The position numbers were made by a program, and so were the translations under genes. Of a DNA stretch of 48,821 nucleotides, positions 4,654-41,823 are shown in pieces. Under the pieces are notes generated by a model. The model was not told the origin of the DNA. It saw only the letters and a program-made list of their open reading frames with translations, and made no database searches. Within the stretch, counting starts at the first letter, position 1, and every line of letters starts with the position of its first letter. This DNA is from Alphaproteobacteria bacterium (GTDB lineage: Bacteria > Pseudomonadota > Alphaproteobacteria > SMXQ01): NCBI GenBank assembly GCA_030831315.1, contig JAURLI010000046.1, forward strand, positions 1 through 48,821. The letters run 5' to 3'.

Positions 4654-5190
4654 CTACTTGCCTTCCTCGTCTTCCATCAACTCCGGCGGCGGATCGAGCG
4701 TGATCCGTCCCGCGTCCAACTCCACTTCCCGCACCACCTCGGCAGTCAAAGGCAGATAGAAGGTCTCTCCCTTCGTATCCTCCAGCACCAGCACGGGGCC
4801 CGCGCCGAAGTCCTCTACCGCCGCGATGCGGCCCAACTTCTCTCCCGCCACATCGAAGGCCGCGAGGCCCGCGAGATCGTGGTGGTAGTACTCGCCTTCC
4901 GCCGTTTCCGGCAGCGCAATACGGGACACGAACAGTTCCTGTCCCGTCAGGGCCGCCGCTTCGTCCCGGTCATTGATCCCGGCAATCCGGGCGGTAACGT
5001 CCGCCCCGGTTGCCCGCAAGACCTCGACCGTCAGCTTGCGGCCCCCGGCCGTCTCGACCGGACCATAGGCGGCGATGTCCTCGGGCCTTTCGGTGTAGGA
5101 CCAGATGTGAATCTGCCCCCTGACCCCGTGCGGCCGGCCGATCTTGCCGACCGCGACCCGATCGCGCCCCTGGCCAGATGACCCGGCCAC
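4654..5190 (-). CDS. rimM: 16S rRNA processing protein RimM (GTG start)
   Basis: RimM binds S19 and helps mature the 30S head. The protein contains [20 protein letters not shown] at the N-terminus, the [22 protein letters not shown] linker and a PRC-barrel-like C-terminal half ending in [13 protein letters not shown]. The frame is open into rpsP, but those residues are an Arg/Pro-rich shadow of the rpsP tail. I chose the GTG at 5190, which is 7 bases after the rpsP stop, has GGAG about 10 bases upstream and gives 178 residues, the usual RimM length. No ATG lies between the rpsP stop and the conserved core. Confidence 0.9.
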
Positions 5191-5197
5191 CGGCGCG

Positions 5198-5605
5198 TTA
5201 CTCCGCCTTCGCTTCCTCGGCCGGAGCAGCGTCCGCAGCCGGTTCGGCGGCGGCCGCGGCAGCGGCTTCGGCGGCATCGGCCGCGGCCTTCAGGCGTTCC
5301 TGCGCCTTGGCCTTGGGCAGATGCTTCTTCGACTGCGTCGGCACGGCGGGCTTTTCGGCGAGGCCCACCGTGTGCAGGAAGCCCTGCACGCGGGTCGAGG
5401 GCGTCGCACCGGAAGCGAGCCAATGCTTGATGCGGTCCTGGTTCATGACCAGGCGCTGCGGATGATCCTTTTTCAGCATCGGGTCGAAATGACCGACGCG
5501 CTCGATGAAGCGGCCGTCACGGGCCTTGCGCGATTCGGCGATGACGATCCGATAGAACGGACGCTTCTTCGCGCCTGCGCGCGAGAGTCGAATTTTCAAT
5601 GCCAT
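5198..5605 (-). CDS. rpsP: 30S ribosomal protein S16 with Ala-rich tail
   Basis: The first 80 or so residues are S16: [20 protein letters not shown], then [20 protein letters not shown]. After the core comes a tail rich in Ala, Glu and Lys (from about residue 95), bringing the protein to 135 residues; extended S16 tails are common in alphaproteobacteria. It heads the rpsP-rimM-trmD-rplS block, about 80 bases downstream of ffh on the same strand. Confidence 0.97.
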
Positions 5606-5688
5606 GCGATGTCTTGTCCTTTCCGTGTACTCGAAACGTTGGTTGTGTGTGTCGAAACTAAAAAACGCAAAAAACGAATTCCGAATTC

Positions 5689-34919: not shown

Positions 34920-35645
34920 TCAGAAATCGCGCAGCAGGCGCCCGTAACCCTCGATCCGGTCATTGACGCCGCAGCGGCGCAGGGTCTGCCAGACGATCGA
35001 CTGCAACGGCTGGATGACGGTGACGCCAAGTTCCTTTTCCAGCGTGTCGATGGCGCCGATCATCGCGTAATGCGGGCACGAATAGTAGATCGTGTCGATG
35101 TCGGGATACTTGCGCTTCAGTTCGCGGCCGAGCTCGACGGCCTTTTCCTCGGGCACCATGCCGAGCTCGACGAACTTGGCGTAATGGCGGGTGCAGCCCG
35201 CGGCCTCGAGGCCGAACTCGCGGATATATTCCAGATGACGCTCGTCGTGGGATTCGTCATACGGATGCACCACGCCCGCCTTCCTGCCGCCCAGAACCTT
35301 GAACGCCTCGCGCTGGGCCGAAAACGACGTGGTGATGGGAATGCCGACTTCCTTTTCGGTTTCGGCGATCAGCTCGTCGACGTTGGAAAAACCGCGGCTG
35401 ACGTTGATCGGCAGCCCGCCGAAGCACAGGATATCGACCTTGGCCCGCGCCATGACATGGGCGGCCCGCAGGGAGGCTTCATAGGAACGGTCCACTTCCT
35501 CGCTGTTGCGCTCGACCAGCGGCAGGGTATGCACCACCAGCGTCACCCCATCGGGCACGATCTTGTAAAATTCGTACGGGAAAACCTCGGTCGCCGAGGG
35601 CGGCGAGGTATAGCCGATTCGCGCGCGATGGCCGTACATGGGCAT
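34920..35645 (-). CDS. AMDase/maleate isomerase-family protein, paralogue A (Cys form)
   Basis: A 241-residue member of the Asp/Glu racemase superfamily, closest to the arylmalonate decarboxylase / maleate cis-trans isomerase branch. It starts MPMYGHRARIGYTSPP, with AGGAGG upstream. The first active-site loop is LCFGGLPINVS (Gly rather than the racemase Cys); the second is YYSCPHYAMIGAI with Cys190, matching the single catalytic cysteine of arylmalonate decarboxylase. It ends GYGRLLRDF, as AMDase ends GYGRLF. It follows the frameshifted hydrolase by 26 bases. Reaction unknown: decarboxylation, racemisation or cis-trans isomerisation of a small dicarboxylate are all possible. Confidence 0.87.
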   Translation of the reverse strand: MPMYGHRARIGYTSPPSATEVFPYEFYKIVPDGVTLVVHTLPLVERNSEEVDRSYEASLRAAHVMARAKVDILCFGGLPINVSRGFSNVDELIAETEKEVGIPITTSFSAQREAFKVLGGRKAGVVHPYDESHDERHLEYIREFGLEAAGCTRHYAKFVELGMVPEEKAVELGRELKRKYPDIDTIYYSCPHYAMIGAIDTLEKELGVTVIQPLQSIVWQTLRRCGVNDRIEGYGRLLRDF

Positions 35646-35671: not shown

Positions 35672-36462
35672 TCAGTTGGGCTCGGGCATCAAACCATGAT
35701 CGCGCAGGAATTCGATCACCAGCGCATCGAACCCGGCCGGGTCCTCCATCATGCAGGCATGGCCCGCGCCCGCAAGAATGCGATGGCGCGCGCCGGGAAT
35801 GAGGGCGGCGGTTTCCTCGCCGCGGGGGCGTGCGCCGTCGAACTCGCCGTTGATGAGAAGCGTCGGCGGCTTGTAGGTGGCAAGATAAGGGCGCGCGTCA
35901 CCCGCCGACAGAGCCCGGAACACCGCGGCAATGCCCGCCGGATCGTTGAGCGGATCGCGTTCGGAAAACATGTCGTGCAGGTAGGCGCCGATGGGCGTGT
36001 CGCCGAAACCTTCGCGGTTGCCGAAGCGCATGTGTTCGCGCCGGTAGGGCGAGAACGGCTGGGACAGGTAGCCCTCGATCCGGTGCTCAAACGGCTGCGG
36101 GCCGGAATTGCCGCCGACCTGGATGACGGCGGAGAACTTTTCCGGCGCCATGCCGCCGAGCAGCAGGGCAAGCTTCGATCCGATCGAGCAGCCCATGACC
36201 ACGGCGCGGTCCACCCCCTCGTCCCCCATGACGCCGAGGACGTCTTGGGCCATGTCTTCGAAACTGTAGGGCGTCGTCACCTTGGCGGAGCGGCGAAGCC
36301 GCGCAGATCGACCGAAATCACCCGAAAAAACGTGGAAAACCGGGCCTGCTGGTAGAGCCACAGGCTGTGGTCGAAGGGAATGGCATGGATCAGGACCATC
36401 GCCGGCCCGCGGCCCGCGACTTCGTAATAGATATCGACGCCGTTGGCGCGGCTGACGGGCAT
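35672..36462 (-). pseudogene. Alpha/beta hydrolase with a single-base frameshift
   Basis: The N-terminal part (start 36462, GGGAGGG upstream) reads MPVSRANGVDIYYEVAGRGP, with oxyanion-side AMVLIHAIPFDH and ISVDLRGF, then runs into a stop at 36277. The rest lies in another frame from about 36294 on: GRSAKVTTPYSFEDMAQ, nucleophile Ser in GCSIGS, acid in LLINGEFDG and histidine in LAGAGHACM. Adding one base near 36293/36294 turns TTCGCCGCTCC into TTCGGCCGCTCC and restores the expected DLRGFGRSAKV. The intact protein would be about 263 residues. The rest is well preserved, so the lesion is recent or a sequencing error. It precedes paralogue A on the same strand. Confidence 0.8.
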
Positions 36463-36614
36463 GGCTTCCCTCCCCGGTTCCACCCTTTTGGCCCCGCGCA
36501 GCAATCCGCGTGACAGGGTGTTTCCTTTCCGATTAGCCTTGTTGGCAGGAAACGGCAAGCCCAAGCTTGCCGGTCCCAATAAGAACGACACGACACCTTA
36601 CAGGGAGAACCAAG

Positions 36615-37727
36615 ATGGCACCGGGCAAATTGTTCTGGCTGCTTGCCTGCGCCGTGGCGCTGGCCGGAGCGGGCGCGGGCGGCGCGAAGGCCGACGCGGT
36701 CAGCGATTTCTACAAGGGCAAGCGTTTCAGCTTCATCATCGCGAGCGACGCGGGCGGCGGCTACGACACCTATGGGCGCGTCCTGATGCGCCACTACAAC
36801 CGCCACCTGCCGGGCTCGCCCAACGTCGTTTCCAAGAACATGCCGGGCGCCAGCGGGTTGCGCGCCGGTGCCTATCTCTACAACACGGCGCCGCGCGACG
36901 GCACGGAGATGGGCATTCTCTACAACACCAATCTTCTCGAGCCGCTGTTCGGCAACAAGAAGGCCCATTACGACCCGATGAAGATGAACTGGGTCGGCTC
37001 GATGGGGAAACTGCAGAACATCTGCGTGACCTGGCAGACGAGCCCGGTCAAGACCTTTGAGCAGCTCAAGGGCGAAAAGCAGTTCACCGTCGCGGCCACC
37101 GGCGTCACCGGCAATTCGGCCCAGATGCCCTACCTGTTCAACGCGCTGCTCGGCACCGACATCAAGGTGATCGCGGGCTATTCGACCTCCGGCCAGCGCC
37201 TTGCGCTGGAACGCGGCGAGGTGCAGGGCATCTGCGGGCTGGGCTATTCGACGCTCACCGCGTCCAACCCCGAATGGTTCGAAAAGAAGAAGATCAACAT
37301 CCTGATCCAGGTCGGCCTGTTCAAGGCCGACGCCATGCCGAGCGTGCCGATGGCGCTCGATTACATCAAGGACGACAAGAGCCGCAGGGTGATGGAGCTG
37401 CTGCTGATCCGCCAGGAATGGGGACGGCCCATCGGTGCCCCGCCGGCGGTCCCCGCCGACCGCATACAGGCGCTGCGCACGGCGTTTGATGCGACGCTGA
37501 AGGACCCGAAGTTTCTTTCCGAAGCCAAGCGCGTGAAGCTGGAACTGGAACCTCTGACCGGGCAGCAGATGCATGACCTGCTCGCCAAGGCCTATGGCTA
37601 TCCCGCCGAGATCATCGCCGCGGCGGGCCGTCTCGTCACCGGCAAGGTCAGCTTCGACGACTGCGCGAAATTCGCGAAAGATTCGAAACAATGCGCGAAG
37701 AAGAAGAAAAAGAAGAAATCAAGCTGA
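36615..37727 (+). CDS. TctC-type periplasmic binding protein 1, CX9C and poly-Lys tail
   Basis: A 370-residue exported protein (MAPGKLFWLLACAVALAGAG, cleavage after AKADA) with GGGAGAACC upstream. FSFIIASDAGGGYDTYGRV and NMPGASGLRAGAYLYNTAP are the TctC/Bug-family substrate-binding motifs; IAGYSTSGQRLALERGEVQG and GICGLGYSTL follow. The family feeds tripartite tricarboxylate transporters, but no TctA or TctB is present here. After the fold comes Cys350-X9-Cys360 and a run of seven lysines to the C-terminus. A strong terminator follows, then a paralogue with the same tail. It is divergent from the hydrolase gene. Confidence 0.88.
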   Translation: MAPGKLFWLLACAVALAGAGAGGAKADAVSDFYKGKRFSFIIASDAGGGYDTYGRVLMRHYNRHLPGSPNVVSKNMPGASGLRAGAYLYNTAPRDGTEMGILYNTNLLEPLFGNKKAHYDPMKMNWVGSMGKLQNICVTWQTSPVKTFEQLKGEKQFTVAATGVTGNSAQMPYLFNALLGTDIKVIAGYSTSGQRLALERGEVQGICGLGYSTLTASNPEWFEKKKINILIQVGLFKADAMPSVPMALDYIKDDKSRRVMELLLIRQEWGRPIGAPPAVPADRIQALRTAFDATLKDPKFLSEAKRVKLELEPLTGQQMHDLLAKAYGYPAEIIAAAGRLVTGKVSFDDCAKFAKDSKQCAKKKKKKKSS

Positions 37728-37925: not shown

Positions 37926-39047
37926 ATGATCAAAATCCGTTCATCAATTTTCATGGCTGCCGCAGGGCTGGCCGTCGCCGCATCGGGCGACGCGGCCAAG
38001 GCCGATACGATCAGCGATTTCTACAAGAACAAACAGGTGTCGATGATCATCGCGTCCGGCGTCGGCGGCGGCTACGACACCTACTCGCGCACTTTCGCCC
38101 GGCACCTCGAGCGCAAGATTCCGGGCAACCCGAACATCGTTGCCAAGAACATGCCCGGTGCAGGCGGCCTGCGCGCCACCAACTTCGTCTACAGCAAGGC
38201 CGAACGCGACGGATCGCTGTTCGCATCGACCTACAACACGATGACGCTGGAACCACTGTTCGGAAACAAGGGGGCCAAGTTCGACGTCTTCAAGCTCAAC
38301 TGGCTGGGTTCGCTCGGCAAGTTGCAGGCGGTCTGCGTCAGCTGGCACACCAGCCCGATCAAGACCCTGGCCCAGGCCAAGGGCAAGACGCTCACCGTGT
38401 CGGCGACGGGCGCCACCGGCAATTCGGCCAAGATGCCGCTTCTGTTCAACTGGGCCGTCGACACCAAGTTCAAGGTGATCCTCGGCTATTCGACGACCGG
38501 TTCGCATCTGGCGCTTGAACGCGGTGAAGTCGACGGCATCTGCGGGCTGGGCTATTCGACCCTGAAGGCGGCGCGGCCAGACTGGATCGTCAACAAGCAG
38601 CTCAACTACCTGGCGCAGATCGGCCTCTATCCGCACCCTGCCCTGCCCGACGTCCCGATGGTGCTGAACGACGTCAAGGACGCCAAGACCAAGAAGGTGA
38701 TGGAACTGATCCTCACCCAGCAGGAGCCGGGGCGCCCATTCATCGCGCCCCCGGGCGTGCCGAAGGACCGCGTGCAGGCGCTGCGCACGGCCTTCATGGC
38801 GGCGGCGAAGGATCCCGCGTTCCTTGCCGATGCCGAACGCGCCAAGCTGGAAGTGACGCCGATGAGCGGCGAGGAGATCGACGCCATCCTGCGCCGCGCC
38901 TACGACTATCCACGCGATGTCGTCGAGGCGGCGGCCAAGCTGGTCGGCCCGCCCGCCAAGGGCACGGTGACCAACTGCAACCAGTTCACCAAGGAAGCCA
39001 AATGGTGCCGCAAGGCCAAGAAGAAAAAGGCGCAGAAGAAAAGCTGA
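37926..39047 (+). CDS. TctC-type periplasmic binding protein 2, CX9C and Lys-rich tail
   Basis: A 373-residue exported paralogue of the preceding gene. The signal peptide is MIKIRSSIFMAAAGLAVAAS, cleaved near AKADT. It shares the layout of its neighbour: MIIASGVGGGYDTYSRTF, NMPGAGGLRATNFVYSKAE, TGNSAKMPLLFNW, LGYSTTGSHLALERGEVDG and GICGLGYSTLKA. The tail again has Cys351-X9-Cys361 followed by a lysine-rich end (RKAKKKKAQKKS). AAAGGGAG precedes the start. It has its own upstream region of about 145 bases after a terminator, so it can be expressed separately. Ligand unknown. Confidence 0.88.
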   Translation: MIKIRSSIFMAAAGLAVAASGDAAKADTISDFYKNKQVSMIIASGVGGGYDTYSRTFARHLERKIPGNPNIVAKNMPGAGGLRATNFVYSKAERDGSLFASTYNTMTLEPLFGNKGAKFDVFKLNWLGSLGKLQAVCVSWHTSPIKTLAQAKGKTLTVSATGATGNSAKMPLLFNWAVDTKFKVILGYSTTGSHLALERGEVDGICGLGYSTLKAARPDWIVNKQLNYLAQIGLYPHPALPDVPMVLNDVKDAKTKKVMELILTQQEPGRPFIAPPGVPKDRVQALRTAFMAAAKDPAFLADAERAKLEVTPMSGEEIDAILRRAYDYPRDVVEAAAKLVGPPAKGTVTNCNQFTKEAKWCRKAKKKKAQKKS

Positions 39048-39567: not shown

Positions 39568-40293
39568 TCAGAACTCGCGGAACAGCCGGCCGAAGCCCTC
39601 GATCTTGTCGTTGATGCCGGCGGTCCGCAGCGCCTTCCAGACGATCGCCTGCTGGGAGGTCATCACCGCGACGCCCAATTCGCGCTCCACCGCCTCGATG
39701 GCGAAAGCCGTCGGCCAATGGGCAGAGGCGAAATGGATGCAATCGGTTTCAGGCCACTGCTGCATGAGCTGGCGGGCGAGCTTGAGGGCTTCCCCTTCGT
39801 CGATCTTGCCGTAATGCAGTAGTTTATGACGTTCGGGCGACAGCACGCCAACCGATTCAAAACCCATGTTGCGCATCTGCTCGTGGTGGCGCTCGATGTG
39901 ATGCGGCCCCGCCATGTGGGCCGTCGCCACCTTGCTGACGCCGAGTTTTTCCATCGCTTCTTTCTGGCAAAGCGTTGAGGCGATCACCTTGGTGCCGATT
40001 TCGGCGGCAAGGTCGGAACAGATTTTCGGCAGGTTTTCGATGCCGCGCGACTGGTTGACGGGGTTGCCGCCGAGCACGACGACGTCGGCCCCTGCTTCGC
40101 CCATGGCGCGGGCGGCGGCAAGGGAACGGTCATAGCTGCCGTCGAAGGCCTGCTTAGTATATTCGTTGCCGACCTCCAGCGTGGTGATCATCAGGGTCAC
40201 GCCGTCGGGTACCATCTTGTAGAACTCGTAGGCGAACACCTCGGTGACGAAGGGCGGCGAACAGTAACCGATGCGGGCGCGATGGCCGTACAT
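39568..40293 (-). CDS. AMDase/maleate isomerase-family protein, paralogue B (Ser form)
   Basis: A 241-residue paralogue starting MYGHRARIGYCSPP, with AGGAG upstream. The first loop is VVLGGNPVNQS. The second loop reads HFASAHWPTAFAI, so Ser190 stands where paralogues A and C have Cys; the codon is TCT. It ends GFGRLFREF. It starts 11 bases after paralogue C and is third in the D-C-B run. Without either superfamily cysteine it cannot use the standard thiol mechanism, so it may be a serine-dependent variant or a non-catalytic partner. Codon use looks like that of its neighbours. Confidence 0.85.
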   Translation of the reverse strand: MYGHRARIGYCSPPFVTEVFAYEFYKMVPDGVTLMITTLEVGNEYTKQAFDGSYDRSLAAARAMGEAGADVVVLGGNPVNQSRGIENLPKICSDLAAEIGTKVIASTLCQKEAMEKLGVSKVATAHMAGPHHIERHHEQMRNMGFESVGVLSPERHKLLHYGKIDEGEALKLARQLMQQWPETDCIHFASAHWPTAFAIEAVERELGVAVMTSQQAIVWKALRTAGINDKIEGFGRLFREF

Positions 40294-40304
40294 GGGGGCT
40301 CTCC

Positions 40305-41045
40305 TCAGAATTCGGACAGAAGACGGCCGTAGCCCTGCACGCGGTCGTCGACCCCGGCAAGGCGCATGGAATGCCAGGCGATGGCCTGCAGCGACGTCAT
40401 CACGCTGACACCGAATTCCTTTTCCAGCGGCGCGATGGCGTCGATCACCGACCAGTGCGGGCAGCCGAAATAGATGGTGTCGGCATCGGGGTGCGCCTTG
40501 ATCGCGGCGCGGCCCCATTCGAGGGCGCGTGCGGGCGGGAGCGTGCCGAGCGCGATCAGGCTGGACCCGCCCGCGTATTCGCCGACGGGCGTCAGGCCGA
40601 AAAATTCGCGCATGGTGCGTTCATGGCGCGGATTCTGGTCGGGAAGGAACGGATGCACGGTGACGACTTTCTTCGAGCCCAGGCACTTGAAGGCCGCGAC
40701 CTGCGCCGCCGCCGATGACGACACCCGTACGCCGATCTCGCGCGAGAGATTGCCCATCAGGTCTTCGACCGTGCCCTCGCCCTTGGAAATATTGATCGGC
40801 AGGCCGCCGAGGACGACGAGGTTTGCACCCGCCTTCGCCATCGTCTTGGCCGCGTCGATGGAAATCTGGTAGCACTTCTCCACATCTTCCTTCGAGCGCG
40901 TGCCGAGCGGCAGGGTGATCATCATCAGCGACACGCCGTCAGGCACCACGCGGTACCAGTCGATGGGATAGACCTCGGTGGTGACGGCGGCGACGGTATA
41001 GCCGATGCGCGCGCGATAGCCCCGGATGCGGTTCATCTCGTCCAT
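40305..41045 (-). CDS. AMDase/maleate isomerase-family protein, paralogue C (Cys form)
   Basis: A 246-residue paralogue starting MDEMNRIRGYRARIGYTVAA, two bases after the stop of paralogue D, so translation is probably coupled. The first loop is VVLGGLPINIS and the second is YFGCPHWSVIDAI with Cys195, the AMDase-type catalytic position. It ends GYGRLLSEF. It lacks the MYGH start shared by A and B. With A it is one of the two members expected to be active by the cysteine mechanism. Confidence 0.86.
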   Translation of the reverse strand: MDEMNRIRGYRARIGYTVAAVTTEVYPIDWYRVVPDGVSLMMITLPLGTRSKEDVEKCYQISIDAAKTMAKAGANLVVLGGLPINISKGEGTVEDLMGNLSREIGVRVSSSAAAQVAAFKCLGSKKVVTVHPFLPDQNPRHERTMREFFGLTPVGEYAGGSSLIALGTLPPARALEWGRAAIKAHPDADTIYFGCPHWSVIDAIAPLEKEFGVSVMTSLQAIAWHSMRLAGVDDRVQGYGRLLSEF

Positions 41046-41047
41046 GA

Positions 41048-41782
41048 TCAGAAATCCTTGAACAGGCGGCCGTAGCCGGAAATCGAATCCTTGATCCCGG
41101 CAAGGCGCAGGGCCTGCCACAGGATCGCCTGGATGGAGGACATGACGGTAACGCCAAATTCTTCCTCCAGCGGCGCGATGGCGTTGATCACCGGCCAGTG
41201 CGGCGAGGGGAACATGATGGTATCGGCGTCGGGGTGTTCCTTCATCAGCTCGCGCGCCATCTTCACCGCTGCGTCATCGGGAATGCCGCCGATGCGGTTG
41301 AAGGGAGAGCCCCAGGCGCGGGTGCCGAGCACCTCGGCCCCGAACTTCTGGGCGTAATCGTCGAAGCGGTGGTTGTCCTCGGCCTTGTAGGGGTGCGCCA
41401 CCAGCAGCTTCCTGCAGCCGAGCAGGCGGAAGGCTTCCTTCTGGGCCGAGGCCGAGGTGGCGACGGGAATGCCCAGCTGCTGCTCCAGATCCTTGATCAT
41501 GCGGTCGGCGTTCTCCACCCCCTTGGCGAGGTTGATGGGCACGCCGCCCAGCACGATGGAATCGCAGCCGGCTTCGGCCATCTGTTCGGCCGCCTTCATG
41601 GAAATGTCGTAGGACTGGTTGACCTCGGCGGCCGAGCGCACCGTGATCGCAAGGGTGGTGATCACCAGCGTCACGCCGTCGGGCACGACCTTGTAGAATT
41701 CGTATGGAAAGACTTCGCTGGTGAGCGGCGGCGAGGCGTAGCCGATGCGCGCGCGATAGCCGTACTTGTCTCCCCGGATCAT
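41048..41782 (-). CDS. AMDase/maleate isomerase-family protein, paralogue D (Ser form)
   Basis: A 244-residue paralogue starting MIRGDKYGYRARIGYASPP, with GGGAGGG upstream. The first loop is IVLGGVPINLA. The second loop is MFPSPHWPVINAI with Ser193 (codon TCG) in place of the catalytic Cys. It ends GYGRLFKDF. It is first in the D-C-B-exported-protein run; a perfect 9-bp inverted repeat lies 17 bases upstream of its start. As in B, no superfamily active-site cysteine remains. Confidence 0.86.
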   Translation of the reverse strand: MIRGDKYGYRARIGYASPPLTSEVFPYEFYKVVPDGVTLVITTLAITVRSAAEVNQSYDISMKAAEQMAEAGCDSIVLGGVPINLAKGVENADRMIKDLEQQLGIPVATSASAQKEAFRLLGCRKLLVAHPYKAEDNHRFDDYAQKFGAEVLGTRAWGSPFNRIGGIPDDAAVKMARELMKEHPDADTIMFPSPHWPVINAIAPLEEEFGVTVMSSIQAILWQALRLAGIKDSISGYGRLFKDF

Positions 41783-41798: not shown

Positions 41799-41823
41799 CG
41801 ATTGTTGTTTGGATCAACAATCG
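41799..41823. promoter_or_regulatory. Perfect inverted repeat upstream of the D-C-B operon (candidate operator)
   Basis: CGATTGTTG (41799-41807) and CAACAATCG (41815-41823) form a perfect 9-bp inverted repeat with a 7-base spacer. It sits 17 bases upstream of the paralogue D start and 30 bases after the TSUP stop. No T-run follows, and centre-to-centre spacing is near 1.5 helical turns, so a regulator dimer site is more likely than a terminator. Confidence 0.5.

Follow-up and report, generated by a model that had tools for sequence, protein, structure and literature searches.

Serine in place of the classical active-site cysteine in paralogues related to arylmalonate decarboxylase and maleate isomerase

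Enzymes of the racemase superfamily are commonly characterised by one or two catalytic cysteines, and automated annotation labels proteins of this kind as racemases or arylmalonate decarboxylases (AMDases). The window that we analysed, a stretch of 48,821 nucleotides from an alphaproteobacterial genome (contig JAURLI010000046.1), carries four paralogues of this kind, A to D. In two of them, B and D, a serine occupies the position of the catalytic cysteine. This raised the question of whether the serine forms are decayed copies, partners of the cysteine forms, or proteins that function in their own right.

Sequence and fold of the four paralogues

Three of the genes lie on the minus strand as one co-directional unit, D-C-B. 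Paralogue D (41048-41782, 244 aa) has Ser193 at the catalytic-cysteine position, in FPSPHW, with His195 two residues on. Paralogue C (40305-41045, 246 aa), which starts 2 bases after D (TGA-TC-ATG), has Cys195 in FGCPHW, and Ala-Ala replaces Pro-Pro in its first loop. Paralogue B (39568-40293, 241 aa) comes 11 bases after C and has Ser190 in FASAHW, as well as a lineage-specific Cys11. Paralogue A (34920-35645, minus strand, 241 aa), with Cys190 in YSCPHY, stands apart from this unit. The second-loop motifs, their numbering and the 2-base gap between C and D had been given in the initial annotation, and all were exact. In the alignment, Cys190 of A, Ser190 of B, Cys195 of C and Ser193 of D fell in one column, equivalent to Cys188 of AMDase. 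A first-loop cysteine was absent from all four, as had also been noted, since A-D have glycine at the equivalent of AMDase Gly74. Cys74 of A is located in a strand, three residues ahead of the first loop, and not at the first-loop position.

The AlphaFold2 models of D and B were confident (pLDDT 90) and had the family fold. These models matched both maleate isomerase and AMDase along almost their entire length (Z about 25-28, with ties that were not separable). The Asp/Glu-racemase fold, with its two pseudo-symmetric alpha/beta domains, is thus predicted for D and B from the models, and for A and C by homology. The best Foldseek match was PDB 4ix1 (Rhodococcus opacus OPAG_01669, function unknown; E 5e-19, 28% identity). 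This protein likewise lacks the second-loop cysteine (glycine in the alignment), but it differs in having no His-Trp at the equivalent columns. A characterised cysteine-free member was not found in our literature search, which was limited, and one may exist.

The maleate cis-trans isomerases of Nocardia farcinica (2xec/2xed) and Pseudomonas putida S16 (Iso, 4fq5/4fq7) share the whole-chain fold (Z about 27-28). However, maleate isomerase needs two cysteines, a first-loop nucleophile and a second-loop acid/base. One active-site cysteine per loop was seen in none of A-D in the alignment, as the first loop has glycine throughout and only A and C have the second-loop cysteine. The ectoine utilisation protein EutA (TIGR02990) was a weak match (40-60 bits, far below the 318-bit cut-off), and A-D lie outside any ectoine operon.

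Glutamate racemase MurI belongs to the same fold superfamily, and its second-loop Cys-Thr-His resembles the [Cys/Ser]-[Pro/Ala]-His of A-D. It differs in that its catalytic residues include two cysteines and its first loop has an Asp, and it is remote from A-D in sequence (HMMER E 0.004 to 1b73), with Z about 11-12. The S/C-x-H of the paralogues could be profile-aligned with the C-T-H of glutamate racemase, although weakly for so distant a branch (hhalign probability 5%, E 0.0086, one pair). In the window's own genome, the glutamate racemase model TIGR00067 matched no protein at E <= 0.001, neither A-D nor any other, and A-D are without the first-loop cysteine. No full match to this model was seen in any genome of the window's bacterial family (the own genome and G000-G010), the one partial match being of 77 bits in G002. 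We also considered A-D as a stand-in for the missing glutamate racemase. This was rejected, since the genes are part of a catabolic island, their products have no first cysteine, and a D-amino-acid-transaminase-like gene exists. The latter scores just under its cut-off (275.8 vs 277.45 bits) and may supply D-glutamate.

The initial annotation had proposed that A and C could be AMDase-like. All four proteins indeed matched Pfam Amdase (PF17645, cut-off 25.9 bits) better than any other family, and each of them passed the cut-off (A 73.7, B 62.9, C 63.4 and D 91.0 bits). The AMDase of Bordetella bronchiseptica (PDB 3dg9/3ixl) shares with them this Pfam family and the whole-chain fold (Z about 26-28). 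Its Gly74 is found in A-D and its Cys188 in A and C, but not in B or D, which have serine. TTT transport genes have been reported near AMDases (PMC5812351). It could therefore be argued that A and C are AMDase-like decarboxylases, and that B and D, with serine, perform a variant of this chemistry that differs in stereochemistry or rate.

The AMDase-defining residues argue against this. These include the dioxyanion hole T75, S76, Y126 and G189 (Table 4, PMC4996985). We observed that T75 is replaced by L/N/L/V and G189 by P/A/P/P (in the order A/B/C/D), and S76 by P in all four, so that A and C both read L, P, P at T75, S76 and G189; Y126 corresponds to Y/A/F/Y. Further, G190 is His in all four, and at V43 A, C and D have Arg and B has Glu (the L40-Y48 region was read from the HMMER alignment, as the MAFFT placement was misaligned there). 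Pro14-Pro15, the PP motif that lines the AMDase pocket (PMC4996985), is present in A, B and D and missing from C. Identity to AMDase is 22-25%, and the scores against the NCBIfam AMDase equivalog NF052327 (56-91 bits for A-D; A 74, C 68) are far below its 225-bit cut-off. Since A and C are without the dioxyanion-hole residues, their sequences indicate that they are not AMDases, whatever their cysteine, and AMDase-like chemistry in this array appears quite improbable.

The own genome (2.7 Mb, 99.2% complete) contains ten Amdase-family genes, among which A-D make up one subfamily. Four of the further proteins (L003, L004, L006 and L010) have glycine at the catalytic-cysteine position, in motifs such as LLGSGW and LSGSH, which indicates that loss of the cysteine is common in this Pfam family.

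Serine lineages, selection and the pocket

We scanned the species genomes of GTDB for conserved N-terminal patterns, which are blind to the cysteine position, and obtained 78 loci. Together with the window these yielded 97 full-length members of the subfamily that have GG-x-P in the first loop. The residue at the cysteine position was Ser in 52, Cys in 34, Ala in 6, Gly in 2, Asn in 2 and Gln in 1. The histidine two residues beyond was kept in 93 of the 97 and absent from 4. Glu20 (near the first strand), Gly76-Gly77, Pro79 and Trp219 (A numbering) were each present in 97/97. Given this mixture of residues at one position against the near-constant histidine and GG-x-P, the cysteine is not a signature of the branch, while the histidine and the GG-x-P loop are. 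In this branch the first loop follows the pattern G-G-x-P, and the second loop x-[C/S]-[P/A]-H-W. The sequence comparison thus shows that the classical cysteine position can hold different residues in different lineages, with His, Glu20, GG-x-P and Trp219 almost invariant.

To place these forms we used a maximum-likelihood tree from which the motif columns had been left out. The tree was made by a 'quick' method and has some long branches, so its deep joins are unsure, but the named clades are well supported. The D clade (34 rows, SH-aLRT 100), drawn mostly from Rhizobiales metagenome-assembled genomes, has serine in 34/34. The B clade (15 rows, SH-aLRT 100) has Ser in 11, Asn in 2 and Cys in 2. 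All 11 rows of the A clade (SH-aLRT 96) carry Cys, as do 11 of the 12 in the C clade (SH-aLRT 97), the remaining one having Gln. Serine and cysteine were clustered on the tree, and none of 500 shuffles was as low, so the pattern is not due to chance. Counting all states, the position changed at least nine times over the tree.

We also estimated dN/dS (Nei-Gojobori; dS 0.57-0.77) against the L021 orthologues, which are of the same genus and 85-93% identical. The values were 0.064 for A, 0.072 for B, 0.157 for C and 0.097 for D. The columns equivalent to the AMDase pocket had a conservation of 0.94 in D, 0.96 in A and 0.95 in C, compared with 0.66-0.72 for the remainder of the protein. With serine fixed throughout the D clade, the pocket conserved and dN/dS low, the serine does not appear to be a mark of decay. 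As judged from these sequences, the serine forms are old, constrained lineages, and neither a recent loss nor decay. The description of B and D as serine variants was therefore borne out, by the shared column and by the serine lineages on the tree. Their description as pseudo-enzymes is disfavoured, since the serine lineages keep the pocket and catalytic-loop residues, with dN/dS as low as in the cysteine paralogues.

When the B members were pooled, no excess of pocket conservation was seen (0.667 vs 0.635 elsewhere). Within each of three B sub-clades, pocket identity was 0.95-1.0 (small groups, P 0.03-0.05). This sub-clade-specific conservation suggests that specificity varies from one B sub-clade to another.

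Another conserved cysteine in the pocket of B or D would have changed this picture, as the initial annotation had recognised. For D there is none, its only cysteines being C73 and C123, but in B the invariant Cys11 is a candidate. This residue ends the first strand and precedes the PP motif by two residues. A cysteine is present at its column in 15/15 members of the B clade, and nowhere else among the 97. B might thus keep thiol chemistry through a relocated cysteine that replaces the one of the second loop, and in favour of this the PP motif beside it lines the pocket in AMDase. However, two B-clade members (L085 and L087) carry Cys11 together with the classical cysteine, so that it did not simply originate as a replacement, and D has no cysteine at that column. 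We regard the relocation as having very little probability.

Distribution of cysteine and serine forms

The 2-base gap between C and D had suggested that they might be an active/inactive pair. More generally, B and D could be catalytically dead and form heteromers with C (and A), in which their role would be regulatory or structural. The short gaps between the co-directional genes fit this, and so does the damage that Cys-to-Ser exchanges do to family enzymes tested elsewhere. In the window's family, moreover, a B-type gene directly follows C wherever the flank is visible.

When we examined whole genomes, we observed that the D-type was the only detected subfamily member in 12/20 D-bearing genomes. 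Conversely, G084 and G085 had the C-type only and G081-G083 the A- and C-types only, with no serine-type detected in any of these five (E <= 1e-40). With this cut-off, and with many of the genomes being drafts, a gene may have been missed in single cases, but this is unlikely in all. In G081 the reading frame of the C-type gene is broken by a TAG stop. Cysteine and serine forms are thus not always found together, as an obligate heteromer would demand, and a C-D pair is unlikely. In addition, D is restricted within the window's family to the window's genus, most C-containing arrays have no D, and the serine lineages retain the His, the Glu and the pocket residues. Together, these observations make dead partners an improbable account of B and D.

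An A-B pair, which had also been suggested, has no positional basis; A is 3.9 kb away, and two binding-protein genes on the opposite strand lie between them. If any pair matters, the distribution of the genes points to C-B rather than C-D, since in the window's family a B-type follows C at every visible flank and D occurs only in the window's genus. In four arrays of this family (L022:464-3479, L023:4715-7718, G008:C161 and G010:C26) a C-type gene is followed in tandem by up to three B-types, which differ in their pocket residues.

Gene neighbourhood and a possible mechanism

The order of genes at the locus is a molybdenum hydroxylase, hydrolases, D-C-B, binding proteins, a hydrolase, A, an ornithine-cyclodeaminase-like gene, a transporter, two MmgE/PrpD genes, an SDR and a GntR gene, and this order is partly kept in L021-L024. 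For the catabolic neighbours, all NCBIfam names fell under their cut-offs, and no pathway could be assigned. The alpha/beta hydrolase beside A (35672-36591, minus strand) is split over two frames in comparison with its intact L021 orthologue (4744-5607), owing either to a genuine frameshift or to an error in the assembly. A palindrome in the gap before D (ATTGTTG-N7-CAACAAT, 41801-41821, a perfect 7-base inverted repeat) was considered as an operator and rejected, as it occurs only once in the window and is missing from L021.

Two homologous solute-binding proteins are encoded on the plus strand between A and B. SBP2 (37926-39047) is TctC-like (Pfam TctC 31.2 bits, cut-off 27) and has homologues that adjoin D-type genes elsewhere; SBP1 (36567-37727) has no Pfam match by itself. 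A TctC-like gene was present near the D-type gene in 31/32 loci elsewhere, most often as the next, co-directional gene. These D-linked proteins are TctC-like but divergent, and only some of them reach Pfam significance. TTT systems mostly carry carboxylates (PMC5812351). By analogy, the neighbouring TctC-like proteins make a carboxylate the likely substrate of A-D.

The constant presence of this gene could also mean that the serine forms are non-catalytic ligand-binding proteins, that is, sensors or carriers for the carboxylate of the neighbouring binding protein. A pocket conserved without the classical cysteine is equally what would be expected of such a protein. On the other hand, the conserved His and Glu look catalytic more than merely binding, no regulator or sensor domain is attached, and the solo D-type genes have no conserved cysteine-type enzyme to sense for. 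A binding role is in our view unlikely.

We favour the reading that A-D are old paralogues in an uncharacterised AMDase/maleate-isomerase branch, and that B and D would be functional, with changed chemistry or specificity and with no need of a cysteine-bearing partner. Together with the mechanism proposed below, we give this an even chance. In glutamate racemase the second-loop Cys, Thr and His take part in the deprotonation of L-glutamate, and a Cys-to-Ser exchange costs about 1000-fold (PMC6927343). For AMDase, the engineered double mutant G74C/C188S has a rate 20,000-fold below that of the wild type (PMC12576825). If the chemistry were canonical, the serine forms would accordingly be poor enzymes. 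Yet serine is fixed in the whole D clade although the exchange is crippling in cysteine-dependent enzymes, from which we infer that the cysteine may not be essential to the mechanism. The conserved histidine is the best candidate for the constant catalytic group, but it could be structural or substrate-binding instead of an acid/base.

In the mechanism that we propose, a carboxylate would be delivered through the TctC-like binding proteins, and an enolate-type intermediate would be stabilised in the inter-domain cleft. The invariant histidine, equivalent to that of the Cys-Thr-His in glutamate racemase, would by analogy serve as acid/base, and the Cys or Ser beside it might tune the reaction or its stereochemistry. 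That the branch as a whole was freed from the catalytic cysteine in this manner, with Cys, Ser, Ala, Gly and Asn all compatible with function, is a tentative proposal to which we give somewhat less than an even chance. A conserved lineage without the cysteine would widen the known chemistry of the fold, and would caution against annotation by the cysteine alone. It might also provide starting points for cofactor-free decarboxylases or racemases in biocatalysis. As the cysteine and serine forms lie side by side in this array, the question is directly testable.

We also observed that SBP1 and SBP2 both end in a lysine-rich tail after two cysteines (e.g. CAKKKKKKKSS). This tail is absent from Rhizobiales and other homologues (L042, L039 and L041), and is kept in L021, L022, L023 and L080.
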